Assembly: GCA_024636975.1 (NCBI GenBank)
Contig: JAGXGA010000019.1
Coordinates: 248,001 to 312,000 of the forward strand
From: Mariniphaga sp.
GTDB taxonomy: Bacteria; Bacteroidota; Bacteroidia; Bacteroidales; Prolixibacteraceae
Length of the DNA: 64,000 bases
Direction of reading: 5' to 3'
Shown: in pieces, positions 6,481-64,000 of the stretch
Layout of the letters: the number at the start of each line of letters is the position of its first letter
How positions within the stretch are numbered: position 1 is the first letter of the stretch
The notes under the pieces: generated by a model
Told to the model about the DNA's origin: nothing
Databases searched by the model: none
The model's input: the letters and a program-made list of their open reading frames with translations, nothing else
Made by a program: the position numbers and the translations under genes

Positions 6481-6573
6481 AAGTACATGTAAATTTCGTA
6501 GAAATTAATATTTTACATGATTAATTCTGTGTTTCAATTGTAGTTTAACTTTGTAAACAAAAAATCAAAAGCT

Positions 6574-12853: not shown

Positions 12854-15800
12854 GTATACCATTATTTCCATTAAGGGCGCTGGATGGTTCAACTTTAACC
12901 GTTCCGATTGGTTTTCCAACAGATAACCAACTTCTGTCATTAGATACAAATCATTGGCCAAGTTTTAGTGCTCAATACCAAACGTCGCCGGCAAGCGGTA
13001 GAGTTTCTGTTTTAGCGCCACTAGATGGCAGAATTCGCTTCGTTGAACGCACTATTTTAGGTACTCCGGTGTATCTATTAGAATTCAGACCAGATATTCC
13101 CTTAGATTTCCAAGCGATGCCCGGGTGGGCGTCACCAATACCACGATCTATTGTTATAAGTGTTTCTGCCTTAGATGATGAATCAAGTCGTTTGGTTGTC
13201 TTCTCTGATGCAATTAGAGTATTCCGGCGTAGAGGAGGGCATAGAAAGAGAGCTCGTTTCGAAGGAGGAAGACTTAGACAAGTAGACCCAATAGATTTGT
13301 CTTCAGGAGATATCACCACGCTTGCACAAAATGCATTGGATGGCAATTATGACATTAGTGTGGAAAAAGGGCAAGAAATTTTGAACACAACTGCTTCCAT
13401 TAATTTGGGTATGATTCACTATTCAGGCGAAAACCTTGATGCTACAGATGCCTCTATTTATTGGATGGACGTGCATGAATACTTTATACGACTAAAAAGA
13501 GCTTTTCCAGATGATTCCTCAATCGGTTTTTCATTTCGACATAACCCAAGTGATATGCCTTTTCGTATGCGACATGAAAAGAAGACTTCTACTGCCATGT
13601 CAGGTGACAACCATATAAATACCCTTATTGGGGGTATGCAAGAAGTAGCAATTTATCATCCTCCAACTCAAAATCTTACGGCTGATCACACCCGATATAC
13701 AGATAGATCATTGGCAATACCTGATGAATTATTCCTGCTATCACCAGGAGCAGATGCTTCGCTAACATTTTCAAGATCCACTGTTGACCACCGGCTGTAT
13801 TTATTTCGAAATCAAGAAAATGAATCCCGAGTTTGGCGGTCCGATCCACGTTCAGGAAGGGAAATTTCCTTGCGATTTTCAGCTGTCACCTATAGCTGGC
13901 CTGCAACGCGGTTTGAACCTTATAATTTGGCCTTAATCGCGAATAATAATGTCGGGATTTCTTTTAATATAATGAAAGACTTGCTAGATACAGTAAGAAG
14001 GCTAACTAGGACCGTATTTGAACAAAAAGAGCGCTTTGCAAATTATATCAGACAAGGTGACAATGCTATTAAAATAAAGATGCTTGAAAACATCAATCGA
14101 ATCATCAATGGAGCACCTTCCAGTTTCCGTGATGATCTGCGAGGGGCCTTGGACAATTCAGTATTTACAGGCTTTTCTGTTTCTTATATGGGTATTAAAA
14201 ACGATAAAGATCGTGCTGTTATCCTTCTCAAAAACTCCATGAACGACCAATTCTTCGCCCAATTTAAGGCTGATCCTACAGATGCAAATATTGAGATTTT
14301 TAATAATGCATTAGACGCTTTAGAAAATGAACATGAAGGCGATATTTTCATTCGATCAATAACGAATGGGTTTATGGTAAAAGATATTCATAATTCATCA
14401 GCCACGGCTCCTGTTGACTTTGACTGGTTTAAATCCATCTGGAGCACGCAAAGGCGTTTTAGAGGTCCAGCTGTAGCGTGGTGTTTCAAAATGGTCCGAC
14501 AAGATATGTTCCATCATGCCCGAATTGCTCATCAGCAAATCCGTCTACATCCGGATCAAGTTAGATATCTCATTCGAATACGAGGAGCATATCGGGCTCG
14601 ATTTGGAGAATTATTTAGTATTACAACTAGCGAATATACTACTACGTCTAGTCAGGTAAGGAATATTTTAACCGATGAAGTAATCACACGTACACATACA
14701 CAAAGGACGACTATCTCTTTCAGTCTCGATACCGATGTGGAAATCCCTGGCGCAGGATCCATGAGTGGTGGGACGATAGTGGCAGATGCTTTCGGGCACG
14801 CACTAAATGCATTTAACTTGTTAGGCTCACTTTGGAGGATATGTGAAGATACGGTTAAGGTATACCGTGGAGACCAAAGCTATCAGGCTATCTATGACTT
14901 GACTAAGGATATGGTAAGTTTGTCAAGCGATATATACCATCTAATGCCATCTAGGCATTATACCGGAATAAGTCGAGGACCTGGGTTTGCAGAATTTTTT
15001 CGAGGATTTAGTGTAGTTTTTGGAACTGTAAGCATGGCAAAAATGCTAATGAGCACTAATGATCTTCATGCCTCAGGAAACTATCTGTCGGCCGATCTTA
15101 CCGCAATTGCCGCTGCAGGGAGTGCGGTAACTATCAGTGCGGAGGCATTGGTTATTATGGGTCTAGGTTCTGCTAGTTCAGGAGGAATGGCAATTATCAT
15201 TGTCGCTGGCGCGGTATTCAGCATTGCATTTGAGCTAATGGCAAATGCCCTAAGAGATCCTGAAATTGTAGTAGACTTTAGTCATACCATGTTTGGAGAG
15301 GATTATGCAAATTTACAAACCAATTATGATGGTTTAACTGATACAGTTCGTAATAATTTTGTACAATCTTTTTTGCTCAATAATCGTAATAGTTGGGTCC
15401 GCAATCTTTACCGACAAGTAGCCCATCTAAATAATTATTTATGGCCCCTGAATGCAACTTTAACAAATCGAGAGGTGAATGAGCCAGGCAGTACGAGAAG
15501 AGTTAGGGAAATCAGCATTAGTATTGTCAGATCTAGGGCTAAAGCTTATTCACGAGTTTACTTTGAGTTGTTCTCACCGGGTACTCCAGATTTTGGCACC
15601 AAAGGTACTTTCGTAATTGATCCGCGCTCTTTTAGAGGTGTAGGTTGGCACCCTATAGTTATTGGTACTGCAGGAACTTCACCTTCTCTGCAGTATCAGG
15701 CTACCGCAGGGACTGGTGAGTCAGTTTCACTTCAAATAAAGACGTATGCACCACTAGGCAGCCCACTTTCAGGCATTAATAAAGGAGTAATAGCTGTTAC

Positions 15801-15975
15801 TTTTGATGAAAGTATAGAATATACTCTTGACCCGAGTGATCCTAATTTGTCATCACTTGGAATAGCTCCAAGTCTCATTCGGAATATGCGCAGCAACCCA
15901 TTTGATTTGAGGTTGCACGAATCGCCCATGGAAAACAACGCAAACAAGTCGCAAGCATTCATCTCAACTTCCTAA
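12850..15975 (+). CDS. Giant protein with hydrophobic hairpin region, cassette A (A2)
   Basis: 1041 aa, not recognised as a known family. The start overlaps the A1 stop (ATGA). Residues about 50-75 (LAPLDGRIRFVERTILG) recall the barrel hinge of M23/lipoyl-like folds, but no catalytic site follows. The middle is predicted helical and charged. Residues about 745-800 form two long Ala/Gly-rich hydrophobic stretches (AIAAAGSAVTISAEALVIMG; GGMAIIIVAGAVFSIAFELM) separated by a glycine turn, the kind of hairpin found in membrane-inserting toxins and translocation domains. The C terminus (from ~890) returns to beta-rich sequence. No counterpart is visible in the part of cassette B inside this window. 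Membrane insertion is my inference from hydrophobicity only. Confidence 0.8.
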   Translation: MSIPLFPLRALDGSTLTVPIGFPTDNQLLSLDTNHWPSFSAQYQTSPASGRVSVLAPLDGRIRFVERTILGTPVYLLEFRPDIPLDFQAMPGWASPIPRSIVISVSALDDESSRLVVFSDAIRVFRRRGGHRKRARFEGGRLRQVDPIDLSSGDITTLAQNALDGNYDISVEKGQEILNTTASINLGMIHYSGENLDATDASIYWMDVHEYFIRLKRAFPDDSSIGFSFRHNPSDMPFRMRHEKKTSTAMSGDNHINTLIGGMQEVAIYHPPTQNLTADHTRYTDRSLAIPDELFLLSPGADASLTFSRSTVDHRLYLFRNQENESRVWRSDPRSGREISLRFSAVTYSWPATRFEPYNLALIANNNVGISFNIMKDLLDTVRRLTRTVFEQKERFANYIRQGDNAIKIKMLENINRIINGAPSSFRDDLRGALDNSVFTGFSVSYMGIKNDKDRAVILLKNSMNDQFFAQFKADPTDANIEIFNNALDALENEHEGDIFIRSITNGFMVKDIHNSSATAPVDFDWFKSIWSTQRRFRGPAVAWCFKMVRQDMFHHARIAHQQIRLHPDQVRYLIRIRGAYRARFGELFSITTSEYTTTSSQVRNILTDEVITRTHTQRTTISFSLDTDVEIPGAGSMSGGTIVADAFGHALNAFNLLGSLWRICEDTVKVYRGDQSYQAIYDLTKDMVSLSSDIYHLMPSRHYTGISRGPGFAEFFRGFSVVFGTVSMAKMLMSTNDLHASGNYLSADLTAIAAAGSAVTISAEALVIMGLGSASSGGMAIIIVAGAVFSIAFELMANALRDPEIVVDFSHTMFGEDYANLQTNYDGLTDTVRNNFVQSFLLNNRNSWVRNLYRQVAHLNNYLWPLNATLTNREVNEPGSTRRVREISISIVRSRAKAYSRVYFELFSPGTPDFGTKGTFVIDPRSFRGVGWHPIVIGTAGTSPSLQYQATAGTGESVSLQIKTYAPLGSPLSGINKGVIAVTFDESIEYTLDPSDPNLSSLGIAPSLIRNMRSNPFDLRLHESPMENNANKSQAFISTS

Positions 15976-15984: not shown

Positions 15985-18900
15985 ATGCCAGATAAAATCA
16001 TATATCCTGCTTCATATTTATTAAAAGATTTACTCCCTGCGGAGCTAATTATGGGACTAGATGACGCCATTGATTTTTTAGCCGTAGATCCCGATTTTAT
16101 TAATGTGCAATGGACAAGTGAAGGCCTAGCAACACGCTATCGTTTTTATATACTTCAGGAGCTAAGTTTTAGGCTTCCATTTCTTTCAGACATTTCAATT
16201 CATATTGGTGAGCCTGATAGTTTTCCGTATTTCGACTTATCTTTTCAAAGTAGTCCGATGGCTAAATTCTCCATTGACAACCTTATACTTAGTATTAAAG
16301 CTAACGCAAATATTTTACAGGCTTACGAAAAAGATGGTGAAGTATGGCAACCAAAAGCTGGAGTAGTCGGGTACGAATTGGCTTGGAATACAGGTCTTTC
16401 AGTTGATATAACTGGAAAGTTCAACTTTAAATCTCCCGAACTATCTGGCGTACCTCCGTTTATGATAGGTGATTCTGGTTTTATAATTGATTTTACAGAG
16501 TCTGCTTCTTCAGATTCCGCCGCTGATATTCGATGGATTAATGACGATATTCCGCCTGAACTTAGCGAGAAAATACCGCCTGGATTCAAAGGAATGTTTA
16601 TTTCCAGAGCGGCTATGTATTATAGCAAATTAGATTCAGGAACCCGATTACCGCGTATAGGAATTGCGAACGCTAATATTGGTTCAGGAGGATTTTCTGG
16701 TAGCGCAATTGTCGGTGATGAACGAGAAGATCCCGCAATATCTGAAGAAAGATTGAAAGAAGAAGATTTTGATGTATCTGAACTCACAGGTGATCATATT
16801 GCTGGTTTTGAACTAGGTGGTCTTGAAATAATACTATGGCATTTGAAAGTATCTTTCATGCAATCAATACCAGATGGCTTTCTACTTACAGGCCTGGTCT
16901 TTCTACCCTTTGCAAACAAATGGATAAAATTTAAAGCTTCGGCAGGGGGTCCAGAAGCCGATTTTATGTTGGAAATTGGCGGGACTGCAGACGCCCCTTT
17001 AATTAGTATCGAACACGAACTTTTTGAAATTAAGGCAGATAGCATTGCCTATAAACTGCAAGATGATATTCATTATGCCATCATAACTGGCAGTATTAAA
17101 CCCAAAATAGAGGGTTTTGACTGGCCCGAAATGAAGGTTGATGGTCTTTCCATCAGTTCGGAGGGAGATATCAGTATTCCTGGAGGTTGGCTTAAAGCGC
17201 CTAATGAGATTACCTTGGATTTTAAAGCCTTTAAAATAGGAATAAGCGAAATAGGTTTTGGAAACGAAGGCGAGGAAGAAGCCACCAAAAAACAATGGCT
17301 TGGCTTCTCAGGTTCCATAAACCTAGTAGAAGGCCTAGAATTAGGCGCTTCCGTTGAAGGACTAAAGTTTAGCTGGCTTAAGAATGGCACAGGTCCTGTA
17401 GACGTTTCAATGAAGGGAATTGCGGTTGAGTTCGAGATTCCAAATACACTCTCCTTTGAAGGTTCGGTAAAATATGAAACACTAACAGAAGAAAATAATG
17501 GGGGAACAGGTTTAACTGGTGACCTCTTTAAAGGTAATATTAAGCTCAACCTTATGGCGGTTCGCCTCGAAATTGAAGCCGAACTCATGATAGGGAAGCT
17601 TAAGGATGCAGAAGGCCATGAGTTTACTACCTTTTTTATTGTCCTTGGTGCCGAACTCCCAACTGGGTTACCACTGGGAGCCACAGGTACCAGCCTCTAT
17701 GGAATTAAGGGCCTTGCCGCTATTCATGCCGGACCAACAAAAACCAACGAACAGAATTGGTATGAGTGGTATTTGTCTAATCCAGAGCGCAATATCACCA
17801 GCATACAGAAATGGAAACCAATTTATGACGAATATGGTTTTGGTGCCGGTGTTACAATAGGAACAATGTATGATGACGGTTTTACACTCAATATGAGTGT
17901 GATGCTCGTTGTCCTGATTCCTGGACCAGTTATAATTTTAGAGGGTAAGGCCAATATATTAAAACAACGCAGCGCCGATAAAAAAGAGGAAGGTGCATTC
18001 TATTTACTCGCTGTTCTTGATGGCCGTGCGGGCACCTTCATGATCAATATAGATGTTCGCTACTCCCTAGAGGATGTTATTACTGTGGGAGCAAACCTGG
18101 AAGCCTTCTTCGACTTTAATAACTCCAGCAACTGGTACCTGCACATCGGGAAGAAAGAACCTGAAGCGAAACGCATTAGGGCTGAAATTCTATCGCTTTT
18201 TAAGGCCAGTGCCTATTTTATGATAGACAGCAAAAGCTTGCTTTTCGGTGCCAGTGTGGGATTGGACATTCGCAAGACCTTTGGACCTGTATCTTTTAGT
18301 TTGATTGCTAAAATTTCCCTGGACGCCGGGATCTTTTGGAAACCCTTGCAGATGGAAGGCAGGTTGGAGTTGTATGCCGAAATTGCGCTTAAAATATTTG
18401 GTATTGGGATAGAACTCTATCTGCAGATGTTATTGGAAGGTAAAGTCCCGGAACCTTATTGGATCCATGGACTGGCCAAAGTAGGCATAAAACTCTTCTG
18501 GCCCTTACCCGATTTGGAGTTGGAAGTGGAGTTTACCTGGGAACAGCCTGGCGAGGTACAACCAGTTATGCCTTTCCTAAAAGAATGTTCATTTATTCAC
18601 CACAAGGATAATGGGGCTACCTGGGCTATGGAACTACTAACAGATGATCTAAGGGCAACTGATCTCAGTAACCTAAGTATTATTCCAATAGACGCACGAC
18701 CGGTACTAACCTTTGCCCGCCCTGTCCATAATCTAAAAAGACATGCATCCGGAGGTGTAGCACTTCCCGTGCTAAGCCTGTTGAGTGATGAGGTTGGAGG
18801 CAAGAGCCTGGAATATAAAATGGACCAACTGGAACTCCAGGAGTGGACAGTCACAGGATGGAACTCGATAAGGACCGGAATAAATACAGGAGCAGACGAT

Positions 18901-20733
18901 GAGTTCACAATTGATCAGGATAATATTCGCAACTTGGAGGAAGGAACCGAACCCAATGAACCACAAATTGAATTGTGGCGCTACCATGCCGCCGATATGG
19001 CCGATAGATATCAGCGCGAGGACTTCAATGACCGGCATCCACCTTGCAATCATATTACTACCCAGCAATGGATCAGAGTAGACTGGAGAGGCCAAGCGGA
19101 CACCTTGTATGATTATCAGTTTGAATATGCTGGCTTACACTTTGTTTGTGATGAAGTGGCCGGAGAACAGGCACCCAATGTTTCGCGCAGTGAACTGTTA
19201 CATACCCCAGAATTCTTAATTCAATTTCCGGAGCTGGTATATCAGGTGGCTGTCTACCTCACCCAGGAGTCTGCAGATATTGCAGGGTATGTTCTCAAGG
19301 ATGGAGCTAAGATCGGCGATATGACCAAAACAGGGCCAGTCCTGTTCTATAGAGGTTTTGATCCTATCGAAGGAATAAGAACTGAGGGCAGAACTTTAAT
19401 TATTACCAGTATTGTTTACATGACCCAAAAGAGTGTCATTGATCAGCTGGCTCGGACCAACGATAACCATCCTAACGTCACAGAGCAAAATATCAATGGG
19501 CCACTGGTATTGAGTCCTGCTACCTATTATCGTTTAAAAGTGGCCACCTCGGTAGATGTTGATAGCGTATTACGCACGGACACGGTAACTACGAATTACG
19601 CTTATTTCAGAACGGATGAAGGACCAGGAATTTCAGCCTTGCAGGATGGTCACGGAACAAATGAAGAGTCTAAGGAGCTCGCATATAAGAAAAAACCCGT
19701 TCAACAATTTGCCAGTTATATTGAAAAGACCTTACCAATTGACGGTGCCAAAAACTTCTACTCCGGATATGATATGGGGATTCAGTTTAATGAAGCCTAT
19801 GTAGCCAAAATGTTCAGCAATCCTATAAACATGGTAATTAAGGACCGAAATGGAAAAACACTTGAAGCACCTGAAGGGAGTTTTAGAGAAGGATTCCTTC
19901 CATTAATGCCATTCGGTCTTTTAACATGGTTACAAGGTAAAGTTGCAGGTGAATGCTCAACAATTATACCTTCCACACCAGCCCCTTACTTGAATTTTAT
20001 TACTTCGCTTCCCTTTAAACTAAATAGTTTGTATACGGCAGAGGTAATGACTCAAGGAAGTAATGGGGATCAGCTTTTACATAATTTCCAATTTACAACT
20101 TCTATGTATGCTAATATCACGGAACATTTTTTAAGTAAATATCCGGACGGAAGAATAAAAACTATTGATTTGCCTAAAGTTGCTATATCGAGAGTTGAAG
20201 ATACACGTCCCTTGGTACTTGCGTTAAAAGCTTACAGATTAGCTTTAAATGATTTTAGAGGAACAAGTGGTGATTTAATAAATGTGTATACTATTATTGA
20301 GCAGGTAAAATACAAATATAACAGGTTGAATGAAGAAAGTATTACGTTATTTGATTCACTTGATAAGATTGTTAATAAATCTCTTCGCAAAATTAATATG
20401 GAGAAAAGATCTCGTGCTCCAAAATTTGAGATTTTTAAAATTCCAATAAACAATGATACTGATAATTTAATCTTGTTGGAATCTCCTGAACCTATTGATT
20501 GGTTACGAATAACGGCATCTTTAATACATGAAGGAATAATATTAAAAACATCTATAATATCCAATGATGACAAAACGCGAGCATTTTTGATGCATTCCAG
20601 AAGTTTATTATTTAAAAGTGGGGAATATACAGTGAAAATGAACTTCTCAGGCGAAGCCGATCCCATTACCGGAATTATATTACAAAATGGATTAATTGTT
20701 AATGAAGGAATTCGATTTCAAATGAATGTGTAA
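15985..20733 (+). CDS. Giant DUF6603-like beta-rich protein of cassette A (A3)
   Basis: 1582 aa, no signal peptide, nine bases after A2. The region ~550-850 is clearly homologous to ~1105-1415 of the 2389-aa protein of cassette B. Shared landmarks are LPLGATGTSLYGIKGL, a W-rich linker, YGFGAGVTIGTMYDDG, IPGPVIILEGKANIL and, near the end, long alternating hydrophobic/polar beta strands finishing in FWPLPDLELEVEFTWEQ. I would place this block with DUF6603-type proteins, from memory. The N-terminal 550 residues are also beta-rich (repeated I-x-I-x-x-E-x-F patterns); the C-terminal ~700 residues look like Ig/FN3-like modules. The strand pattern suggests a long beta-groove or solenoid, but function is unknown. 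Confidence 0.85.
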   Translation: MPDKIIYPASYLLKDLLPAELIMGLDDAIDFLAVDPDFINVQWTSEGLATRYRFYILQELSFRLPFLSDISIHIGEPDSFPYFDLSFQSSPMAKFSIDNLILSIKANANILQAYEKDGEVWQPKAGVVGYELAWNTGLSVDITGKFNFKSPELSGVPPFMIGDSGFIIDFTESASSDSAADIRWINDDIPPELSEKIPPGFKGMFISRAAMYYSKLDSGTRLPRIGIANANIGSGGFSGSAIVGDEREDPAISEERLKEEDFDVSELTGDHIAGFELGGLEIILWHLKVSFMQSIPDGFLLTGLVFLPFANKWIKFKASAGGPEADFMLEIGGTADAPLISIEHELFEIKADSIAYKLQDDIHYAIITGSIKPKIEGFDWPEMKVDGLSISSEGDISIPGGWLKAPNEITLDFKAFKIGISEIGFGNEGEEEATKKQWLGFSGSINLVEGLELGASVEGLKFSWLKNGTGPVDVSMKGIAVEFEIPNTLSFEGSVKYETLTEENNGGTGLTGDLFKGNIKLNLMAVRLEIEAELMIGKLKDAEGHEFTTFFIVLGAELPTGLPLGATGTSLYGIKGLAAIHAGPTKTNEQNWYEWYLSNPERNITSIQKWKPIYDEYGFGAGVTIGTMYDDGFTLNMSVMLVVLIPGPVIILEGKANILKQRSADKKEEGAFYLLAVLDGRAGTFMINIDVRYSLEDVITVGANLEAFFDFNNSSNWYLHIGKKEPEAKRIRAEILSLFKASAYFMIDSKSLLFGASVGLDIRKTFGPVSFSLIAKISLDAGIFWKPLQMEGRLELYAEIALKIFGIGIELYLQMLLEGKVPEPYWIHGLAKVGIKLFWPLPDLELEVEFTWEQPGEVQPVMPFLKECSFIHHKDNGATWAMELLTDDLRATDLSNLSIIPIDARPVLTFARPVHNLKRHASGGVALPVLSLLSDEVGGKSLEYKMDQLELQEWTVTGWNSIRTGINTGADDEFTIDQDNIRNLEEGTEPNEPQIELWRYHAADMADRYQREDFNDRHPPCNHITTQQWIRVDWRGQADTLYDYQFEYAGLHFVCDEVAGEQAPNVSRSELLHTPEFLIQFPELVYQVAVYLTQESADIAGYVLKDGAKIGDMTKTGPVLFYRGFDPIEGIRTEGRTLIITSIVYMTQKSVIDQLARTNDNHPNVTEQNINGPLVLSPATYYRLKVATSVDVDSVLRTDTVTTNYAYFRTDEGPGISALQDGHGTNEESKELAYKKKPVQQFASYIEKTLPIDGAKNFYSGYDMGIQFNEAYVAKMFSNPINMVIKDRNGKTLEAPEGSFREGFLPLMPFGLLTWLQGKVAGECSTIIPSTPAPYLNFITSLPFKLNSLYTAEVMTQGSNGDQLLHNFQFTTSMYANITEHFLSKYPDGRIKTIDLPKVAISRVEDTRPLVLALKAYRLALNDFRGTSGDLINVYTIIEQVKYKYNRLNEESITLFDSLDKIVNKSLRKINMEKRSRAPKFEIFKIPINNDTDNLILLESPEPIDWLRITASLIHEGIILKTSIISNDDKTRAFLMHSRSLLFKSGEYTVKMNFSGEADPITGIILQNGLIVNEGIRFQMNV

Positions 20734-51824: not shown

Positions 51825-51830
51825 TCCTGC

Positions 51831-51862: not shown

Positions 51863-51945
51863 AAATTGCGAAAGTTTGGTGGGAATTACCACCATTCTAA
51901 ACCCATTAAAAGGATTCTTATCTTTAAATCATTAATAAAAGTTTT

Positions 51946-53760: not shown

Positions 53761-56700
53761 ATGAGACTCGCACTTGTTGATATCATCCGTCCGTACTTTT
53801 TTATTGGAGTGGAGTTGGGACCTGGGGTACAACAAGCCCTAACCATTCTGCATGTTGATGAATATGATGCAGCGTGGGATGACGATGCAGTTGTTATTTC
53901 GGGAACTGCTCGAATAGATTCTGACGATCCTTCTTCTCCATTCTTTTCGGTGAATGCAACGGGAAGACCTTCTACTTCACCTTCGAGTACCTCAACTAGT
54001 CCACTGGAATGGGAATGGCATGACGTAGCCGTAAAGTTCAGACTAACAGCGGCAAGACAACCCGCAGCTGCTCTCCAGTTAAGTGATATCACACATGACT
54101 CTTCTAATGTACTGGAGGCTTTAGGAAATGATACCGGCACCGCTTCTACCGATTATCCCAACACTCAATTTCGATTGGAATTAATGTTCGACCTGGTCAC
54201 AGTTACTATTCCGTGGTTGATTGCAGCTAAATTGGATGGGTACCAGCTTGTTCGTGACCCCAACAATCAAAAGGTCAAAGTTTCCCTCCCCCGCGTATTA
54301 TTAATTTTAAATCAGGACTCTGCCAGTTCAACTGATTTTGACGTAAAACTTGGCAGTTTTGGCGCAGAAACACTTGAAGATACCGACCCGGCGATTGCGG
54401 AACTTCTCCGGATGAATCCGCCATACGCGTTATTCCCAGGGGAGACATGTGGTTTTGGGTTTAAAAAGGCTATTCTCGATCTTTCCGAAACAAAAACACC
54501 CCCAGAATTATTGTCGCTATTCGGACTGGGGGATGACTGGCAGGGTATTTATCTTCCCGAGCTCAGATTTTTTGCTTCAACCCAGAAATCCGCAGGTGTT
54601 TCTTTCAATATAGGAGCACGGGAATTGTTGATTGGCCTTGATCCAACGCCGGGAATCTGGGGTGACTTTAATTTTGACATAGATTTCCTGGGAGATGCCC
54701 TTAAAGCCGGTATTCGTCTTTACAGTGTTGGTGGAGAATTATTTGAGCCTGAGTTGCTTTCAACCCATGATGATGGAAAGATAAAACGGTACCAGGTGAC
54801 GGTACCTTCGACAGCCGGTCCTGAAACTGAAAATTATCTCCTTATGGTAGATATAGAATCAGGAGCGGCCCCATTTACCATCCTAGCGGTGAGTGGAATG
54901 GATCACCCTAATCCTTTGGCAAATCTTCCGGCCACCACCATTTTTGACCCTGCCAGCTCTCCGGAGGATATTTCTGTCCTTCAGCGCATGCGACTATTTT
55001 CACAGGACCAGCGAGTGGCAATACGTATTACAAGTACACGCAACCCTTCTCAGGTACATACCATTGTGCTGGATGTTTTTCCGGATTATGTATCAGCTTC
55101 TTCTCATACTAATAGTAGGAATAGAATTGAGGATGCTACACTTTCAGGAAGCACCACAGGAAATACAGGCACTGTGAGAATTGAGAGTCAGACATCGACT
55201 TCCGCCATATTAGTCCTGGATCCCCCGAACGGAACCCTTTCGGTTGATGGTGACAGTAAACCGGTCACTAATGGCAGGGCTACCGTAATTATTGAAGCAG
55301 GCAATTCACACGATATAAGTGTACACTGGGATGCCGCGGTTATACCGGTTCAGCGGCATTATTTTTTCTTTGCCTTTAATTCTTCTGTAGTCACAACGGC
55401 CAGGACGACTGATATAAGAGAGCTGGACGAACTTATCAATCAATTCGGTGGACTTGAGGAATCTGAGAGAATCATTCGAGTAGATGCTTACGCCAGTCGG
55501 CAAGCAGCTCCAAATAAAGCCCGTAACGATGAACTTTCCCAAGAACGTACGAATTTTGCCATCCAAAAAATAAGAGAACGAGCTGAAATTTTACGTGTTA
55601 CGATTCCTGCAGTAATTCCTGACCATGCTTGGGGAAATGATCGGTATGCAGAACCTGCTGCTGGTGTTGATACACGCCTTATTAACGGACAGATTCCGGG
55701 AAATCCGGATAACTTATCTGCCTCGGAATATAGTGCTAATCATCAGGAAAATTATGATCCGGATATTTTTCAGGTAGCTGTTATAAGTCTTCTTAGACTT
55801 GACTCAAGTCCAGGAGATTTTTCAGGCACGCTGAGCAGGGTCGATGAGGACTCTTCAGATGAGGTTGACCGACCGCAGGAGCCACCCACACCACAGAGCC
55901 AGCAGCCCGGGTTCTTCAGACATGTGGGGGCAAGCATCCGTTTTGAAAAAGATCCCGTTCCGGTCGGCTTTGAATTACGGCTCACGGTAGATTTTAAAAC
56001 CGCCCATGAAGAAGGACTTGAAGAATTCCGGGAGGATATTGATACGGTGGGGCCCGGATTGGAAGATCCGGATGAATTAGAAAATCTTCCCCAGGGAAAT
56101 CCCAACCCGGATGATGGTGTGGTAGAATGTCGTTTCACCTTAATGTATGATCCCTCCACCAGCACATTCCATGAAACTTTAGTGGCTAAGGCAGGGGAAG
56201 GTGATCGGGACGGGTTATGGAGTTGGGGAAATATTCCATCGACGGACGATACGTCAAGCCTGAGCACAGATGGCTGGAGGGATGTATTAGGACTTTATTT
56301 CACCCTTGCACCTCTTCTCGCCGAGACGGCCTCGGATACGGCGAATGGAGGAGAAGTAGTTCCGCTGGTCATTGGTTTGGCAGCACCGGTAGCAATTACA
56401 GCCCTTGGTATTGCCCATGTATTACGGTTCACCCATTACGGTATAGAGCTGGACGTCACCCATAATGACAATGATGTCAAAGCGTCATTGCTATTCGATG
56501 TAGAAAGTGCTATCTATCTGAATTTTAAAATTGGTGATTTTGTAATTGTGACTAACCGTCCCGATAAACCAGTTAAAATTCGTTACAAGGCCATCGGATT
56601 CCGGCTTGAATCTCAGGCCGATGCCCCTGTTTCTTTCCTGCCCGTATTTGATTCTTCCAGGGGCTATACCTTTGATCTGGGTGATTCAGGATCTTTACGC

Positions 56701-59700
56701 GTGCTACCCAGCCTGGGTGATAGTCTGGGAGATATAATTCAGGTTTTAGGAGCCCGGATTGCGCGAACAAACCCTTTGAATATTGAGGTAGAACTTGGAT
56801 TGGGCGTGGATCTCGGCATTATATCGGTTGACAAATTCGGTTTCCGATTACCTGTCGATCCGCTGGGAACACCTTCAATAACAGCAATCGGTGTGGGGGT
56901 AGAAATACCCGGCGTACTTACAGGCAAGGGCTACTTTAAAATCAATGATAGCGGATTTGTCGGGCAGCTCGACATAAGCCTGGAGACTGTAAAACTTCGC
57001 ATCGCCGGAGGTGTGGCTGTTCAGAGTGTTTCGGAAGGCAGTCGCTCGGCAACCTCTACAATCGTCACCCTGGCTGTAGAGATACCCGGTGGCATTCCGC
57101 TCGGCGGCACCGGAATGGCCGTATTCGGAATACTCGGTCTTTTTGTCATGCATCAAAAGAGAAATGAGAGTACAACGGCTCGGAATCCGGCACTGGAATG
57201 GCTTACCAGTGTAAGCGGTGATCCCACCGATTTACGGGGATGGGGGCCGTTGATTGATAAATGGGCTTTTGGTGTTGGCCTGGTTGCAGGTACCATTGAG
57301 GGAGGAACCGTATTGAATCTGAAAGGGATGCTTGTACTGGAATTACCAGGACCGCGTGTTCTTCTGTTTGTAAAAGCCAACATACTGACAGCAAAACCGG
57401 AAACAAAAGGAACCGGTACAGGCACGTTACTGGCGGTGGTTGATATCAGTCCGCAACGCGTGTTAATTGGTATAAAATTCTCCTATGAGATTACTAAGGA
57501 AGTACTTGAATTGAACATTCCGGTGGAAGCGGGCTTCTTTTATGATCCTCCCGAGCACTTTTATGTTGATGTAGGATCCATTGCGCAACCAATTACTGCC
57601 AAAATCCTCAACATAATTGAAGCTACCGCTTATTTTATGGTCCATGGTGATGGAATTCCTGACTTTCCACTGGGTGCCCTGGGTGGCTTTTCGGTGGCTA
57701 CAGGCTTTCGTGCTTCACTTACCTGGGGAAATACTGATATCGGGTTGTATTTAAGAATTGCAGCAGGTTTTGACATTGGCATTGGATTTAAGCCCCTGTT
57801 TTTTGCAGGACGTGTATATATTGAAGGAGAGTTACGTCTGTTTATTGTAAGCATTGAAGCCAATGCGGCACTTATTTTCAGAACCGATGGTACTGATACT
57901 ATCATATCCGGGGAGATTTGTGGCAGGGTGGATTTCTTCTTTTTCTCAGTTAAGGGATGTGTGGACTTTACCATCGGGGATGACCCTTCATTTCCTGAAC
58001 CACCGGATCCAATTCGCGACTTGATGTTACAGAGCCGCTCTCCCGCCCTCATAGAAGGAACCGGTGTTGACCGGGGTATTGACAACATTCTCTGTCGGGG
58101 CACCGAAGACGGCTCCGTACCACTTGTGGAAACCAGGGAAGGTGATGAAACGGTGATTAGAGAAGTATTTGTTCCAATTGACACGATCCCATTGATTCAG
58201 TTTGAAGTTGCTCCAGAAGTGGCACCTGATGCAACCATAGACGGCCAACTGAATGCCGGTCTTCCGGCAGGTTTCCCTGGTGGATGGCAAAAACGGGGAC
58301 AGAATTACCTTAGGTACAGGATTGAATTAATTGAACTAAAATTGGTTGCCATTGGAGGTGATCCGGTTCCGGCAGGGACTTCACCAGTGACCGAGGGTCC
58401 AAGGCCCTATACCTGGCGGCATCCGGATCAGCAAACCGGAAGTGATGGATTCCCTGTCGAACTCGCCTTACTTGACTGGAAACCGTCGAATGTCGACAGA
58501 GCACTTGTTCAAAGCGAGGCCCTGGATAGTCTTATTGATGGTCGCTGGGAAAATGTGTGTCGTCCGGTGGCAGAAGCAGCACAGGTACTTTGGACCTTCA
58601 GGTACGAACCTCTTGGTGCGTCGCTAACAGGATGGCTGATTGACGGAATGGCCTGGCCCGATGCACCGGATACAGTAAGATCACGTCCCGTAGATACAAA
58701 TGTGCGGGTGAAGGAAATATGGAGGACGGATACCTTTCTGGATGGCATGCTGCCCGCAAAAGAAGCCCATGTTGTCGGCCAGCAAGCGGTGTGCCCAAAA
58801 CCTCCGCGCCGCCCCTTCAGACCTGATGTGGAGATTATTGACAGGGCAATATTCAGTAGGAGAACTACCCCGGTGATTACTTCATTGAGAGGTAACCTGC
58901 CTGTTTCAAGGGTAAATTTACCTGGAATGCTTACCTCTGCCCGCTTACTTGCTTCAAGCAGAAAATGCATTTCAAAAGTTCTTTGTGCTCCGTACGAGAT
59001 TCCTGCCGCCAGCATAGGCATTCAAAATGACCCCCTGAGAAAGGCTCTTCTAAATCTCGATGATCAGAGGGCCGACACACTAAGGGATGTTGTCAGAATA
59101 CAAGGGGGTCCATTCCGGGAACTTAAAGTGTTGATATTTGCACGGTCAAAAATGGTCATTGAGGGACTGGTACAGCTACTGGCCTTCGCTCCCGGAAGGG
59201 TTGAAATAGGTATTGCCCCTGATTTCAAAAGAATAAGTAACGATTTAGATCTACCGGACAAATGGACCGATATGTCTGGACCCTGGTGGGATGACGTTAA
59301 ACTGGCAAGGTCTTATTTTCCGCATCTGGAAAGAGCCGGCGGTTGGGATGAGTTTCTGATTACAATCAAGACAGAAAAGCCCGTTCTGACTTTAGATATT
59401 GGAGTGACACCGCTTGCAGGCTCTATTGCCAATTTTGGCATGCAACCACCCCCTTTCTTCGTGGCTGTAATTGAAGGCTTATCAGAATATGAAGTTCTGC
59501 GAGAGACTGATGAAACCGAAGAGAATGAAGAGGATACAAACGGTCTGAATGAGGCTCTTGACAACCAGGAAAGGGCTATGTTGTTACCAGATGCCGAATA
59601 TGAAGTGGTGGTGCATTATTCGGGTGAAGTAGGAAGTAAACCTGAGGATCCCCAGGATGATGATGATCCGAACGAAATTATTTCGAGACGTTCTGTTTCA

Positions 59701-60930
59701 ATTAGACCTGTTTCAAGAACATTTTTTACCGATAGAGAGCCTCCCAGAAGCCTTGATCCCTGGTTGCTCGTTCAATACCCGCCGCCGGGTGAGCTTTATC
59801 ATTTTTATAAAGAAACCGTCGTGGTGGTCTTTGCTACCGACAACGTGCTTGAGTTATTTGAGGTTTATGACAGGAGACTCCGGGCCGTAGCACGGGCGGC
59901 CTCGTTTCGTGGTTCAGAAGAAACGCCGGATGCTCCATTCACCCACCTTCTGCTGGCCCCAGTATTTGAGAAGTTGGAAGGAGCTATTCTGTCTCCGTGG
60001 GAATCTTCCATAAGACACAGACTGGCAGACCGTGCCTGTCTTAACCTTGAAACCGCAGGAAACAGACATGGGAGGGTGAACTTGCCGTTCGCAATGGATC
60101 CGCTGACAGACTATATAATGGAGGTTGAAATGCTTGACCCCTCTGATCGGGTGGTAAAACCAAGTAACCTAGAGAAAGAGGTCGGTGAACGGCCCTTGTT
60201 CAGAATGAATTTCAGTACCTCGCGATATCCAACCCGGGAAGCATGTGCCGAGGCAGTAAGGATTGCGAGAGTTAGTGGAAAAGTAATCAGTAATTTCACC
60301 CCGCTTGCATCACTTTCCGGAATGGTTTCGGATGAAGCGCTGGATGTAGCAACCATGGCGGCAGAGATTCCGCTTAATGAACGTCCTGAATCTCCAACTA
60401 TAACCGTCCTTTGGTCAACAGATTCCACACCTCAACCCTTGGCAATAGTAATTGAAACGCCGGAACCATTATGGCGGATGAGGGATGAGCCGGAACCTGA
60501 ATACGATGATACGGGTGAGTATATACTACGTTGGAGATTAAACAAGCGTCAATGGCTGGAGGTTGATGAACTCGTACGGTCAGATCCAGGGATTCTGGTT
60601 CATGATGGAGGTGATTTTTTACGCAGGACTACTGCTTTGAAGCAGCATTCAAACCGTACCATTGCAGAATTTCGGAATGATTTTATCGGACCAAGGAAAG
60701 CTCCGTCTGCCCCGATACCACTTCTTCCATTAGCCCTGGTTGATAAATTTGTCAGGGACGAGAGTGGCACAAGAACACTGGCTATTCTTAAACCCGGCGC
60801 CAGGGGCAATACCCTTACACTGGGATTATCAAGGGTTTTACATCCTCTATTGGATATTGATACATCGGACACCCCTGTGGTCCTTTGTGAAGTAGATGTT
60901 TCATTTGCACCTTGGGAGGAATTATCATGA
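53761..60930 (+). CDS. Giant DUF6603-like protein with OmpA-type domain, cassette B (B1)
   Basis: 2389 aa, no signal peptide. Residues ~530-680 form an OmpA-like peptidoglycan-associating domain: HYFFFAFNSSVVTTARTTDI, ESERIIRVDAYASRQAAPNK, then ARNDELSQERTNFAIQKI (N-x-x-L-S-x-x-R). Residues ~1105-1415 are the block shared with A3: IPLGGTGMAVFGILGLFVM, WGPLIDKWAFGVGLVAGTIE, LELPGPRVLLFVKANIL, SIEATAYFMVHG-like strands and GRVDFFFFSVKGCVDF. The C-terminal ~970 residues are beta-rich modules with no family I recognise. It may be a very large scaffold that binds cell wall, but the absence of a signal means its route out of the cytoplasm, if any, is unknown. The stop overlaps the next start (ATGA). 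Confidence 0.85.
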   Translation: MRLALVDIIRPYFFIGVELGPGVQQALTILHVDEYDAAWDDDAVVISGTARIDSDDPSSPFFSVNATGRPSTSPSSTSTSPLEWEWHDVAVKFRLTAARQPAAALQLSDITHDSSNVLEALGNDTGTASTDYPNTQFRLELMFDLVTVTIPWLIAAKLDGYQLVRDPNNQKVKVSLPRVLLILNQDSASSTDFDVKLGSFGAETLEDTDPAIAELLRMNPPYALFPGETCGFGFKKAILDLSETKTPPELLSLFGLGDDWQGIYLPELRFFASTQKSAGVSFNIGARELLIGLDPTPGIWGDFNFDIDFLGDALKAGIRLYSVGGELFEPELLSTHDDGKIKRYQVTVPSTAGPETENYLLMVDIESGAAPFTILAVSGMDHPNPLANLPATTIFDPASSPEDISVLQRMRLFSQDQRVAIRITSTRNPSQVHTIVLDVFPDYVSASSHTNSRNRIEDATLSGSTTGNTGTVRIESQTSTSAILVLDPPNGTLSVDGDSKPVTNGRATVIIEAGNSHDISVHWDAAVIPVQRHYFFFAFNSSVVTTARTTDIRELDELINQFGGLEESERIIRVDAYASRQAAPNKARNDELSQERTNFAIQKIRERAEILRVTIPAVIPDHAWGNDRYAEPAAGVDTRLINGQIPGNPDNLSASEYSANHQENYDPDIFQVAVISLLRLDSSPGDFSGTLSRVDEDSSDEVDRPQEPPTPQSQQPGFFRHVGASIRFEKDPVPVGFELRLTVDFKTAHEEGLEEFREDIDTVGPGLEDPDELENLPQGNPNPDDGVVECRFTLMYDPSTSTFHETLVAKAGEGDRDGLWSWGNIPSTDDTSSLSTDGWRDVLGLYFTLAPLLAETASDTANGGEVVPLVIGLAAPVAITALGIAHVLRFTHYGIELDVTHNDNDVKASLLFDVESAIYLNFKIGDFVIVTNRPDKPVKIRYKAIGFRLESQADAPVSFLPVFDSSRGYTFDLGDSGSLRVLPSLGDSLGDIIQVLGARIARTNPLNIEVELGLGVDLGIISVDKFGFRLPVDPLGTPSITAIGVGVEIPGVLTGKGYFKINDSGFVGQLDISLETVKLRIAGGVAVQSVSEGSRSATSTIVTLAVEIPGGIPLGGTGMAVFGILGLFVMHQKRNESTTARNPALEWLTSVSGDPTDLRGWGPLIDKWAFGVGLVAGTIEGGTVLNLKGMLVLELPGPRVLLFVKANILTAKPETKGTGTGTLLAVVDISPQRVLIGIKFSYEITKEVLELNIPVEAGFFYDPPEHFYVDVGSIAQPITAKILNIIEATAYFMVHGDGIPDFPLGALGGFSVATGFRASLTWGNTDIGLYLRIAAGFDIGIGFKPLFFAGRVYIEGELRLFIVSIEANAALIFRTDGTDTIISGEICGRVDFFFFSVKGCVDFTIGDDPSFPEPPDPIRDLMLQSRSPALIEGTGVDRGIDNILCRGTEDGSVPLVETREGDETVIREVFVPIDTIPLIQFEVAPEVAPDATIDGQLNAGLPAGFPGGWQKRGQNYLRYRIELIELKLVAIGGDPVPAGTSPVTEGPRPYTWRHPDQQTGSDGFPVELALLDWKPSNVDRALVQSEALDSLIDGRWENVCRPVAEAAQVLWTFRYEPLGASLTGWLIDGMAWPDAPDTVRSRPVDTNVRVKEIWRTDTFLDGMLPAKEAHVVGQQAVCPKPPRRPFRPDVEIIDRAIFSRRTTPVITSLRGNLPVSRVNLPGMLTSARLLASSRKCISKVLCAPYEIPAASIGIQNDPLRKALLNLDDQRADTLRDVVRIQGGPFRELKVLIFARSKMVIEGLVQLLAFAPGRVEIGIAPDFKRISNDLDLPDKWTDMSGPWWDDVKLARSYFPHLERAGGWDEFLITIKTEKPVLTLDIGVTPLAGSIANFGMQPPPFFVAVIEGLSEYEVLRETDETEENEEDTNGLNEALDNQERAMLLPDAEYEVVVHYSGEVGSKPEDPQDDDDPNEIISRRSVSIRPVSRTFFTDREPPRSLDPWLLVQYPPPGELYHFYKETVVVVFATDNVLELFEVYDRRLRAVARAASFRGSEETPDAPFTHLLLAPVFEKLEGAILSPWESSIRHRLADRACLNLETAGNRHGRVNLPFAMDPLTDYIMEVEMLDPSDRVVKPSNLEKEVGERPLFRMNFSTSRYPTREACAEAVRIARVSGKVISNFTPLASLSGMVSDEALDVATMAAEIPLNERPESPTITVLWSTDSTPQPLAIVIETPEPLWRMRDEPEPEYDDTGEYILRWRLNKRQWLEVDELVRSDPGILVHDGGDFLRRTTALKQHSNRTIAEFRNDFIGPRKAPSAPIPLLPLALVDKFVRDESGTRTLAILKPGARGNTLTLGLSRVLHPLLDIDTSDTPVVLCEVDVSFAPWEELS

Positions 60931-63900
60931 GCAAACGTTATGTATTTCCGGAATTATTCAACGCCAGCGGTGCCCTGATTGCGGCAGGTGGACGAACCCG
61001 ATTGGCATTGCGGTGGTTGTTGGATCCCTCTGTTGGGTTTCCCAAGGCGCTATTCCATATTTGGCATTTTAAGGGCTCGGTAGACTACGAAAGAACGGGT
61101 CATCAGTTGCAGAGGACTGAAAATGGGCGGATGATTTCCTGGACAGGTGGAGAATCTGCCGTCTCACTTAAAATGAATGTGACAGTGAACAGCGGGTCGG
61201 CCACTTTTCGTGCTCACAGTGCGGCCCTAGGCGCTGGCCATATTGTTGATGAAAAAATAATTACCGGTCCGGTATCCAGTTTTATCCTGACACTTACCGG
61301 TAATCCGGTCAATAGTATTTCATTTTCTGGTGCAGCAATCATTAACAATATTTCCATCCTCAAAATGAGCAATTTTGTGAATAGTCCGGATTGGGAATTA
61401 GTGGAGATTGCAGGCTTGCCGGTTTCAAGCCCTCTGTTTGATTCCAGTGGCTATTCGCTGGATCCACAGGGACCGGTGGGTGCCTTGACGAGCCCGGTCA
61501 AAGCAGCCATTCGAAGGGTTAAAGAAGGCACCCCGGAAATTGGGTGGCCCAATACAACAGATTTGGGAAATTCCATCCCGACCTTTATTCCTCCTAATCC
61601 CGAAATACTCGTAACCAAGGAAATTCAACCACTGCTAGAGGGAATGAACGAAGTTTTTATCAGTACACCGGAACCTTCCGAACATGCTGAAAAAGTAATT
61701 AATATGGTCTCTAAGGCTCCCAGATCGGTACATGGCACTGATGCCCCTTTAGAATGGCAGGAACGAGTAAAGGAAACCCAGATTCGCCCTGCAGGAAGTA
61801 TTCTATTGGCATCTGGATCGGATCCATATGCAGCATTGGCTTTTGGATTCGGAACAACTCTGGACGTCAAGCAACAATTTAGAATGGCAGCTTCGGCAAC
61901 CAATCCGGGGCGAACAGGTGTTTATATGGTGACAGTAGAACACGAAGCCAGGTTAACATTTGACCTACTGTCGCTGACAATTGAAATTCCTATCGAGGGT
62001 GAACTGGCGGCCGTTTACCTCGGCGCTAATCCTGTATTTCCTCAGACACCATCAGGGGTATCAGCAAAGGCCAAACTTCCCGCTGGTGCCACTACTTCAT
62101 CTCGTCCACATCTCGACCCACCGGGTAGAATTGATGGTCCATGGCTTCAGACTGTGCAGGTAGGATGGAATCTTCCTGTGCCAACGACTGCGGCTGATCC
62201 CAAACCCGGAAGTTATGTGGTGGCAAGAGGTACCCTGGGTAGTAACCTGACGATCAAGAATGAAAAAAGGCTATCCGGCGGCTGGGTAATCATTGCTCCT
62301 GCGATTTCACGGGAAAAATCCCATAATGCAGCAATGAGATACCTGGATAATGGGGTGCCTGAACCTTTTCTGGGTGAAAATGAGGACCTTGTATATAGTG
62401 TGATTAACCAGGACCTATTCGGGAGATGGAGTAACTGGGCCTCTGCCAGCTATAATCTGTTAAAAGTGGGCGCACAGGTGCCTGCCATGTATAAAATTGA
62501 ATTAATTGCGATTGACCTCACAGCTATGTCTGCTTCTGCTGCTGTTGAATTTACCTGGGATTGGTCTCACAGAAGCCTGAATACACTTACGATTCGGTTA
62601 CTCACCCACCTGCCATCAACCGATGCACCGGCCGTACCGGGTTCGGTATTCAGCGTCGGAGGAACTGTAACTTCAGACTTTTCTATTGATTTCAGTACTG
62701 CAACAGTAGATACACCCCCCCTGGGAGTTGAACTTATTACCGAAGAATCACGTGGAAGTCTCCGAACCTATAAAGTAGTGATCCCTGGCATATCTCTGTC
62801 ATTCGAAGCTCACCCCCACCTACGCGTCTCTGCACTTGCCAAGGCCAGAGATCGAATTCCAACAGTAGCAACCGGTCGTGAAAGTGCGTGGTCCAATGTA
62901 ATAAGCACGGATATAAGTAGTCCTATCCCGCCACCAGCTCCTACTGTGCCTGAAGGTATGCAATGGTCATCGGTGCCGGATCCCCGGGGGATCTCAAGAG
63001 TTGAATTACACTGGAATGGATTCGCCCCTATGTATGCCATTTATGAGGCGGATGAAACAGCAATCCGGCGGGAGCTCAACATGGCCTCGGCAAACCTTGA
63101 AATAGCCGCGGCTGACAGACTGATTGCCCTGCGCGCCAGAGATTTTTCAGCCGCGAGGAGAGCATTCCGTCGAATTGCTGACAGACTTACCGAAAACAAA
63201 CATAGGGTGCAATTACCTCGTGGCTCACGAATGATCCATTTCTATGCAATTGCACCTGTCAGCGTGACAGGTCAGGAAGGTGCACTTCCCGGATTGACCA
63301 ATGACTATGTGGCTGTAGCTTCTCCCGGCATAAAAAAACCTGAGCAGCCCACGGTTATAGTACGGGAAAGTGAAGGTGTCATTCAGCTGTACATCAGGGT
63401 GAATGAAACACGGGTTGAAGCAGGGAAAATTGCCATACATCGAATCAGGCGTAAAGCACAGTCTTTATCGTTGGATACGATGGGCCCTCCGATTATCACA
63501 CTGGACGATTCCGTTGCTGTACGTACAGATAATTTTGTTGAATGGATCTTTACCGAGACGGTCAGTGATCGTCCCTGGATCCCAATCTTTTACAGGGTGG
63601 TTGCCTTTGGAAAAACCACAGTAGATCGTGGTATTTTCGGTGGAGAATCTGCCCCGTCGCGATCGGTGGAAGTCGTTCCTCAGTCACCTTCCCTGCCTGA
63701 AATGACTCCTCTTGCACAGGATGTAATTACAGATTTCCCTGACCACATCCTCATAAGTTTTGAAAGTAATGCCCCACTTAGTCAAACATCCCTCGGTTAT
63801 CATGAATTTACGGTCAAGGCCATTCAGCCTGACGGAGAAATGATAACAAAATCACAAGCAGGTCATCAATTGAAACTTTACAGTGAACGACCTGGTCCGG

Positions 63901-64000
63901 AAGATGAAGATTCTGTTTTTCGATTCGACCCGACAACTCCCAGGAATGGAAGAACAATGGCGTGGGTGCCTGTCAACACCACACTTGTCACAGTTGAAGT
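60927..64000 (+). CDS. Giant LRW...GFP / fibronectin-like protein, cassette B (B2), partial at window end
   Basis: At least 1024 codons, open to the last base. Starts at the ATG overlapping the B1 stop, with GGGAGGAATT as a good Shine-Dalgarno 7-16 bases upstream. The N terminus has ALRWLLDPSVGFPKALFHIW, homologous to the start of A1, and YSVINQDLFGRWSNWASAS matches A1's YAVKGIDLFGRTSTWS. Later parts read as fibronectin-like modules (VELHWNGFAPMYAIYEADET; PWIPIFYRVVAFGKTTVDRG). No signal peptide. Translational coupling to B1 suggests the two products are needed in fixed proportion. Confidence 0.85.
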   Translation, partial: MSKRYVFPELFNASGALIAAGGRTRLALRWLLDPSVGFPKALFHIWHFKGSVDYERTGHQLQRTENGRMISWTGGESAVSLKMNVTVNSGSATFRAHSAALGAGHIVDEKIITGPVSSFILTLTGNPVNSISFSGAAIINNISILKMSNFVNSPDWELVEIAGLPVSSPLFDSSGYSLDPQGPVGALTSPVKAAIRRVKEGTPEIGWPNTTDLGNSIPTFIPPNPEILVTKEIQPLLEGMNEVFISTPEPSEHAEKVINMVSKAPRSVHGTDAPLEWQERVKETQIRPAGSILLASGSDPYAALAFGFGTTLDVKQQFRMAASATNPGRTGVYMVTVEHEARLTFDLLSLTIEIPIEGELAAVYLGANPVFPQTPSGVSAKAKLPAGATTSSRPHLDPPGRIDGPWLQTVQVGWNLPVPTTAADPKPGSYVVARGTLGSNLTIKNEKRLSGGWVIIAPAISREKSHNAAMRYLDNGVPEPFLGENEDLVYSVINQDLFGRWSNWASASYNLLKVGAQVPAMYKIELIAIDLTAMSASAAVEFTWDWSHRSLNTLTIRLLTHLPSTDAPAVPGSVFSVGGTVTSDFSIDFSTATVDTPPLGVELITEESRGSLRTYKVVIPGISLSFEAHPHLRVSALAKARDRIPTVATGRESAWSNVISTDISSPIPPPAPTVPEGMQWSSVPDPRGISRVELHWNGFAPMYAIYEADETAIRRELNMASANLEIAAADRLIALRARDFSAARRAFRRIADRLTENKHRVQLPRGSRMIHFYAIAPVSVTGQEGALPGLTNDYVAVASPGIKKPEQPTVIVRESEGVIQLYIRVNETRVEAGKIAIHRIRRKAQSLSLDTMGPPIITLDDSVAVRTDNFVEWIFTETVSDRPWIPIFYRVVAFGKTTVDRGIFGGESAPSRSVEVVPQSPSLPEMTPLAQDVITDFPDHILISFESNAPLSQTSLGYHEFTVKAIQPDGEMITKSQAGHQLKLYSERPGPEDEDSVFRFDPTTPRNGRTMAWVPVNTTLVTVE

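Follow-up and report, generated by a model that had tools for sequence, protein, structure and literature searches.

In the 64,000-nucleotide stretch of Mariniphaga sp. DNA analyzed here (the window; positions 248001-312000 of a 325,177-base contig, C38), the last large genes belong to cassette B, which we found to be complete, as far as its relatives tell, and to consist of three genes, B1, B2, and B3. We tentatively propose, at somewhat less than even confidence, that cassette B represents an undescribed family of operons, of which it would be a complete copy obtained by horizontal transfer, with B1 and B2 as the core and an exchangeable third protein, and that its products form a membrane- or lipid-handling complex. 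The same window contains cassette A (A1, A2, and A3), which carries relatives of both core genes. Below, gene 1, gene 2, and gene 3 denote B1, B2, and B3 together with their respective relatives, and "window-equivalent" positions continue the numbering of the window past its edge.

The initial annotation had placed the beginning of cassette B correctly, but its end had to be moved beyond the visible part (see the table), since contiguous DNA from the same genome carries B2 across the window edge and B3 behind it. A homologue of A2, which the annotation had proposed to seek beyond 64 kb, is not what follows: the next gene is B3, which is not A2-like, and the absence of an A2 counterpart from cassette B extends to the part outside the window. 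Both junctions, B1/B2 and B2/B3, are 4-base ATGA overlaps in which the ATG of the next gene lies on the stop codon of the previous one (starts assumed). The GC content is 0.45 to 0.50 within cassette B, about 0.30 to 0.35 before B1, and 0.31 to 0.39 after B3, where other genes start. It is this drop, together with the new genes and the comparison with relatives, that led us to consider the cassette complete. A misassembly is unlikely, because the cassette lies inside the contig, is flanked on either side by AT-rich DNA, and has the same gene order in its relatives.

When 84,980 species genomes were searched for two short peptide patterns, 281 stretches matched, among which were 41 relatives, representing 40 distinct loci; these numbers are a lower bound and include near duplicates (four Massilia loci; R. 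tropici L038 and plasmid L009) as well as several loci with broken frames (L028, L029, L043, L049, L051, L052, and L065). In 39 of these 40 B-type loci, from named genomes of Pseudomonadota, Actinomycetota, and Bacteroidota, gene 2 lay downstream of gene 1; the fortieth, L056, is cut by a contig end, and in L065 the two genes are 1.5 kb apart as open reading frames (ORFs). After exclusion of L043, L044, L049, L051, and L065 as broken or cut, all 34 junctions left from the 39 loci had an in-frame gene-2 ATG between -3 and +12 bases from the last base of the gene-1 stop, with an overlap in 23 (starts assumed). Cassette B had initially been described as rearranged, with its order reversed, but gene 1-gene 2 turned out to be the common order, the exception being the A-type order, gene 2-X-gene 1, found only in cassette A and Mycetohabitans among the loci read. 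Gene content, the kept order with its coding overlap, and the spread across phyla are all read directly from these sequences.

Within the window's own class, Bacteroidia, eight newly fetched loci (L103 to L110, that is, 7 of 15 class matches plus G566) all had gene 2 downstream of gene 1 and another gene, termed gene 0, upstream of it; one or two further ORFs frequently separate gene 0 from gene 1. The gene 0 version of the core was also seen in L077, L080, and L081, and several gene 0 members share an FFTE/D...FGP N terminus. As for the flanks, no ORF family was shared by more than 4 loci out of 40 (ORFs of at least 90 amino acids [aa], BLASTP at 1e-6, up to 10 kb).

The proposed homology between A3 and B1 was borne out by BLASTP, which aligned the two across the DUF6603 core with an E value of 7e-36 (30% identity over 350 aa), excluding the chance-level similarity that had been named beforehand as the refuting outcome; a search of the genome with B1 as the query likewise recovered A3, at 2.1e-33. 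The Pfam model of DUF6603, PF20248, scored 40 bits on A3, against a cut-off of 27, and did not match B1 (Pfam E limit of 1, and again 0.1); run on the whole genome, it found A3 and a locus on contig C19, and not B1. Since B1 is homologous to A3 and since 16 of 37 B1-type core segments match PF20248 at an E value of 0.1 or less (best, 1.8e-15), these comparisons place B1 in the DUF6603 superfamily, though it fails the cut-off of PF20248 itself. The C19 locus, the third with DUF6603 in this genome (C19:40000-59999 [L005], 2-15609; PF20248 E value, 8e-118), has six ORFs, including a 1329-aa DUF6603 protein and matches to Biotin_lipoyl, a PhoD-like phosphatase, and an S74 chaperone.

Besides its core, B1 has an OmpA-like stretch, which is below the cut-off in B1 itself (E value of 0.033, 15 bits against a Pfam cut-off of 27.2) and was matched in 8 of 15 relatives at an E value of 0.1 or less (best, 6.8e-8). 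The stretch appears to be a trait of B1's clade and not, as the initial annotation had it, a gain by B1. Ahead of the core lies a hydrophobic segment (about aa 866 to 884), present in 10 of 10 listed proteins of the B1 clade (B1, Rt1, and eight loci) and also in Pa1 and L055 and absent from L053. A hydropathy scan, made with no signal-peptide predictor, showed nothing signal-like at the N termini of B1, B2, and B3 and a weak stretch of this kind in Pa2.

Relating B2 to A1 was less straightforward. BLASTP between the two gave nothing convincing (best E value of 0.021, off-register). A gene-2 profile, however, matched A1 in five sub-alignments, all of them colinear (see the table), with scores of 43.3, 34.6, 29.2, 24.6, and 19.3. 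As the best scores in eight shuffled copies of A1 were 15.3 to 22.6, the first three blocks stand out, the fourth barely does, and the fifth does not. The Mycetohabitans gene 2 matched A1 with an E value of 6e-22 over 146 aa and the gene-2 profile with a probability of 92.4. Gene 2 of the Bacteroidia loci gave four colinear blocks with A1 (four requested) and, with the gene-2 profile, blocks of which the best four were colinear and the fifth was not; these blocks are individually weak (probability of 36.5 or less), and the same set compared with B2 alone gave three blocks that were not in one order. For one member of the set, L106, the gene-2 profile gave a match of 4.5e-10, the set searched being small. 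The two motifs on which the likeness had first been based are both there, LRW...GFP at position 34 of A1 and 33 of B2 and DLFGR-x-S-x-W at 880 and 501, respectively (B2 being numbered here from the TTG at 60912, not from the ATG at 60927). Among nine gene-2 proteins, the former was found in four (A1, Az2, B2, and Rt2) and the latter in only two, A1 and B2, a count that speaks against the argument from shared motifs. Because of the order of the colinear blocks and the intermediates, and even though BLASTP fails, B2 is, on profile evidence, a very remote homologue of A1; the claimed likeness holds outside the motifs as well, at this remote level and not at that of BLASTP.

The third gene is the variable part of the operon. 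Gene 3 was found in 21 of the 40 loci (L056 being cut by a contig end). In Mycetohabitans (L011 and L075), the third gene lies between gene 2 and gene 1 and encodes a 509-aa phospholipase D (PLD) protein that is matched by Pfam PLDc_2 at 8.1e-17 and keeps HSKLMIVDD and a separate NHQK stretch. Although Pfam gave no PLD match on B3, a gene-3 profile built without Mycetohabitans matched this protein with an hhalign probability of 96.8 and an E value of 2.6e-10, which, on profile evidence, places a PLD fold in the C-terminal part of B3. B3 and its relatives share with the Mycetohabitans protein C-terminal D-D, G-S/T, and R-G/S-x-T/S-F/Y-D. The H and K of the detectable H-x-K-x4-D motif were nevertheless replaced in 21 of 21 aligned B-type rows (B3 itself, the R. 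tropici plasmid copy, and 19 of the 21 copies from named genomes), with R, A, E, or M at the H position and S, T, A, M, or N at the K position, while the D-D was kept; no H-x-K-(4-6)-D pattern occurred in these rows, and two further copies, left out because of broken frames, had the same change at H and K. The altered HKD motif is, like the gene order, a feature of the sequences as they stand.

In cassette A, the slot held by the PLD protein in Mycetohabitans is occupied by A2, for which no homologue was found in plasmid records (at 1e-3) or in the other 139 genomes of the family. A2 has a hydrophobic, glycine- and alanine-rich region (about aa 752 to 798) that might cross the membrane. Gene 0, A2, and gene 3 showed no similarity to one another, and profile comparisons gave nothing that would identify A2 with either a diverged B3 or the gene 0 of the Bacteroidia. 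Depending on the lineage, the third gene is thus a PLD, either pseudo or intact, or A2, or a member of an unnamed family of the Bacteroidia, or else could not be found. Other ORFs next to gene 2, seen at one or two loci each, may be chance neighbors, namely, hemopexin-repeat ORFs 288 and 124 bases downstream in Streptomyces and Frankia loci (E values of 1.1e-26 and 9.4e-7) and a single Mesorhizobium ORF, 39 bases downstream, that matched Beta-lactamase2 (2.9e-6).

The origin of the two cassettes was inferred from a tree of 47 core sequences (IQ-TREE, midpoint root), which leaves out the DUF6603 gene of C19, not matched by the core model. B1 grouped with sequences from Reyranella (Pseudomonadota) and Chitinophagaceae (Bacteroidota) with support of 100/100, R. 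tropici coming next (98/95), and is 70% identical to the Reyranella sequence over 411 columns; over a 781-aa segment, its identity to Reyranella and Chitinophagaceae is 69% and 66%, respectively. A3 grouped instead with Mycetohabitans (97/94), followed by three genomes of the window's class, and the clade that holds A3 is separate from the 41 B-type rows (100/99). IQ-TREE warns of long branches, namely, A3 plus Mycetohabitans as well as Azospirillum, that may have been joined falsely; plain BLASTP agrees with the tree (3e-105 for A3-Mycetohabitans versus 8e-35 for A3-B1). Phylum labels change six times on the tree, against a minimum of two (37 rows counted, 10 having no label), an excess that is by itself no proof of transfer, and the Reyranella and Chitinophagaceae records are metagenome-assembled genomes. 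Overall, cassette B was probably acquired horizontally and, since B1 and A3 group with different partners, cassettes A and B were likely acquired separately. Separate acquisition instead of tandem duplication, as the initial annotation had it, is supported by the placement of A3 and B1 in the tree, by BLASTP, and by the GC contrast (0.40 to 0.44 in cassette A); a tandem duplication, or a rearrangement of A into B, is ruled against by the tree together with the gene order elsewhere.

Relatives of the operon are sporadic and rare in the groups sampled. In the window's family, 7 of 140 genomes matched a six-row core alignment, the genome itself included; apart from it, only G089 was a strong match with all three genes, the other five being weak (2.3e-8 to 8.7e-4) and, where the start was readable, having a signal-like N terminus as judged by eye. 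None of the three other members of the genus matched this alignment. A 37-row alignment matched 15 of 395 genomes of the window's class, own genome included and four at E values above 1e-6, and 2 of 385 genomes of the class of Reyranella, the Reyranella genome included. With A3 as the query, 6 of 395 genomes of the window's phylum were matched, again including its own. B1 matched 5 of 72,556 plasmid records at 1e-5 and none of 50,697 phage records at 0.01, and a single scan of viral contigs with six peptide patterns yielded no relative; a phage origin was rejected on these grounds.

Features of cassettes A and B (window or window-equivalent positions)
Feature	Position	Strand	Description
Cassette B	53761 to window-equivalent 67045	+	Three genes, B1-B2-B3; B2 crosses the window edge, B3 lies wholly outside
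B1 (gene 1)	53761..60930	+	ORF, 2389 aa; conserved N-terminal region, OmpA-like stretch, hydrophobic segment, DUF6603-superfamily core, C-terminal part kept in relatives
OmpA-like stretch of B1	55366..55554 (aa 536-598)	+	Pfam match, sub-cut-off
DUF6603-like beta-sheet core of B1	56875..57978 (aa about 1039-1406)	+	21 predicted antiparallel strands
B2 (gene 2)	ATG 60927 to window-equivalent 64046	+	1039 aa; contiguous own-genome DNA
B3 (gene 3)	Window-equivalent 64043-67045 (own-genome locus L004, 3044-6046)	+	1000 aa
A1	7265..12853	+	Gene-2 relative, 1862 aa, two Laminin_G_3 stretches
A2	12850..15975	+	Third gene of cassette A, 1041 aa
A3	15985..20733	+	Gene-1 relative, 1582 aa, DUF6603 (PF20248) above cut-off
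Colinear blocks, gene-2 profile to A1	312-335 to 30-53; 566-618 to 149-197; 744-784 to 869-911; 920-989 to 1330-1401; 1024-1126 to 1488-1585		Blocks 1 to 5, in this order

The physical character of the two core proteins was approached by structure prediction, on which the sheet of B1, its amphipathicity, and the domain string of B2 all depend. Residues 860 to 1640 of B1 were modelled from 37 sequences, with a predicted local distance difference test score (pLDDT) of 73.9 and a predicted template-modelling score (pTM) of 0.58; in the core (model residues 181 to 550), 30 of 37 ten-residue blocks reached a pLDDT of 85 or more. Nineteen of the 21 core strands have 8 or more residues (mean, 13), and the even-odd hydropathy difference over these 19 was 3.21, compared to 1.38 ± 0.24 (maximum, 2.26) in 500 within-strand shuffles. 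The two faces had values of +2.46 and -0.75, and the difference for the strands of B2 was 1.88. The B1 core is thus predicted to be a long antiparallel sheet with one strongly hydrophobic face, and the template-modelling (TM) scores obtained with Foldseek are too low to tell a barrel, a groove, and a plain sheet apart. Foldseek against viral proteins gave nothing convincing for this core (best, 2.4e-4 at a TM score of 0.14), and a sequence search of the PDB gave no match. The B2 model (1024 of 1039 aa; pLDDT, 82.6; pTM, 0.58) matched strings of fibronectin type III (FN3) domains and phage tail tips (best E value, 4.9e-13), and B2 is predicted to be a string of FN3/Ig-like domains; searching the PDB with its sequence gave no credible match (best E value, 0.088).

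In the complex that we propose, B1, B2, and B3 would be made in a fixed ratio by coupled translation, as the gene overlaps suggest, and would then assemble, possibly with B2 as the scaffold. The amphipathic character of the predicted sheet raises the possibility that B1 uses its hydrophobic face to bind lipid or to insert into a membrane, and the loss of H and K from a PLD-like domain that is otherwise kept suggests that B3 binds rather than cuts. The third protein, being exchanged between lineages, would set the target on which the core acts or to which it attaches, and the complex would act in the cytoplasm or exit by a route that is not Sec dependent. It would go further to see here a new mobile protein machine, in which a giant, lipid- or membrane-engaging sheet protein and an FN3 scaffold are encoded by overlapping genes with an exchangeable third module, in one branch a dead PLD, and we regard this as rather doubtful.

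Several observations weigh against our proposal. Foldseek offered no solved structure as a convincing fold for the B1 core: 3 of 638 matches had an E value of 0.001 or less (best, 2.1e-4), and among the best 50 of the 638 the TM scores were 0.08 to 0.31, with root-mean-square deviations of 14.6 to 30.5 Å. The pTM of both models is 0.58, and the whole-chain TM scores of the B2 matches were 0.09 to 0.15 on the query. An OmpA-like domain would suit the cell wall side and is hard to square with the lack of an evident signal peptide. Finally, no gene 3 was detected at 18 of the 40 loci, a count that refers to the locus and not to the rest of those genomes, so this gene does not invariably adjoin the core.

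A different reading, unlikely in our view although it accounts for part of the data, is that the operon encodes a released particle or adhesin-like complex, freed by lysis or by an exporter, with gene 2 forming fiber-like arms and the third gene a swappable binder or effector. The LamG stretches of A1 and the hemopexin-repeat ORFs of the Streptomyces and Frankia loci would fit such a complex, as would the Bacteroidia locus L078, where sub-cut-off matches to vWA (in gene 2) and to a phage-fiber repeat (in another ORF) were seen. The resemblance of B2 to FN3 strings, including phage tail tips, points the same way, but it is generic, and neither the flanking ORFs, among which no family recurs beyond 4 of 40 loci, nor the phage records link the operon to such particles. 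The marker of extracellular contractile injection systems (eCIS), Pvc16_N, was present in 7 of the 32 genomes that carry the operon (a count with no base rate to set it against), and with no recurrent neighbor of the operon we rejected a role as eCIS cargo. The genome analyzed here has this marker on a contig other than that of the cassettes (C36:30326-30868; E value, 1.1e-28).

Rather than leaving the cell, the proteins could form a complex that works inside it, in lipid transfer or envelope maintenance, by analogy with the bridge-like proteins of the AsmA/TamB/VPS13 type; the long sheet with one hydrophobic face and the PLD-like third protein would be suitable parts. We consider this improbable, since neither Pfam nor the best 50 of the 638 Foldseek matches included AsmA, TamB, or VPS13, since the operon is as sporadic as described above, and since relatives are also found in Actinomycetota, which have no classical outer membrane. 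Least probable is that the operon is an accessory cassette directed against phages or competitors: distribution is patchy, copies have apparently moved between lineages and some are on plasmids, and DrmC-type PLD models match the PLD protein of Mycetohabitans (best, 1.9e-6, which may reflect the PLD fold alone), but PADLOC gave no match at an E value of 0.01 or less for A1 to A3 and B1 to B3, and no neighbor recurs.

The surroundings of cassette B contain several repeats. An inverted dispersed repeat lies on either side of it (window 51694-51886 and L004 11319-11515; 79% identity) and recurs elsewhere in the genome and in the genus. An ORF on the minus strand (window 49876-51099), tyrosine recombinase-like as judged by eye and not by a family search, stops 2.7 kb short of B1. 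Near the contig end, L004 13174-15898 contains an 83-nucleotide repeat three times and a 136-nucleotide repeat twice around small ORFs, perhaps a cassette array. No empty site of cassette B could be read in the three other species of the genus, where the matches to its flanks are fragments no longer than about 330 bases, and Rfam gave no match in L003 and L004. An argument for a foreign donor from the Shine-Dalgarno sequence GGGAGGA before B2 was dropped, because these bases also encode the C terminus of B1, whose Trp-Glu is kept in three aligned relatives.

Taken together, Bacteroidota, Pseudomonadota, and Actinomycetota share about 13 kb of coding DNA with a common gene order, the third gene being present in only part of the loci. 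This is costly DNA that has apparently moved between phyla and yet is rare in the groups sampled, and no named function was found for it. Its variable third slot, which across phyla includes a PLD-like protein without the catalytic pair, offers a handle for comparing carriers with and without it. An open-access library, whose coverage excludes subscription articles and any preprint not in PubMed Central, had no paper under either DUF6603 or PF20248, and among the titles that it listed more widely, including those on grappling hooks and on repeating-beta-groove proteins (10 of 47 for the latter), none was on the operon. The family belongs to no described system found in the libraries searched, and we do not claim a proven new mechanism.

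Each protein can be compared with known families. Outer-membrane beta barrels (ushers, LptD, and OprD-type porins) account for the majority of the highest-ranking Foldseek matches to the B1 core and have long antiparallel amphipathic strands like those predicted for it; they differ in that the TM scores are at most 0.31 among the best 50 of 638 matches, that B1 has no signal peptide evident from hydropathy, and that it has relatives in Actinomycetota. B2 is alike in predicted fold to FN3 string proteins, phage tail tips included, whereas the operon is unlike phage tail tips in that no phage record matches B1 and no neighbor recurs beside it. B3 has in common with the PLD superfamily (PF13091 and PF00614) the C-terminal signature stretch, from which the H and K of HKD have been lost. 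Compared to DUF6603 (PF20248), B1 is longer and has OmpA-like and further regions, and the operon would give this domain a genetic context and a testable role.

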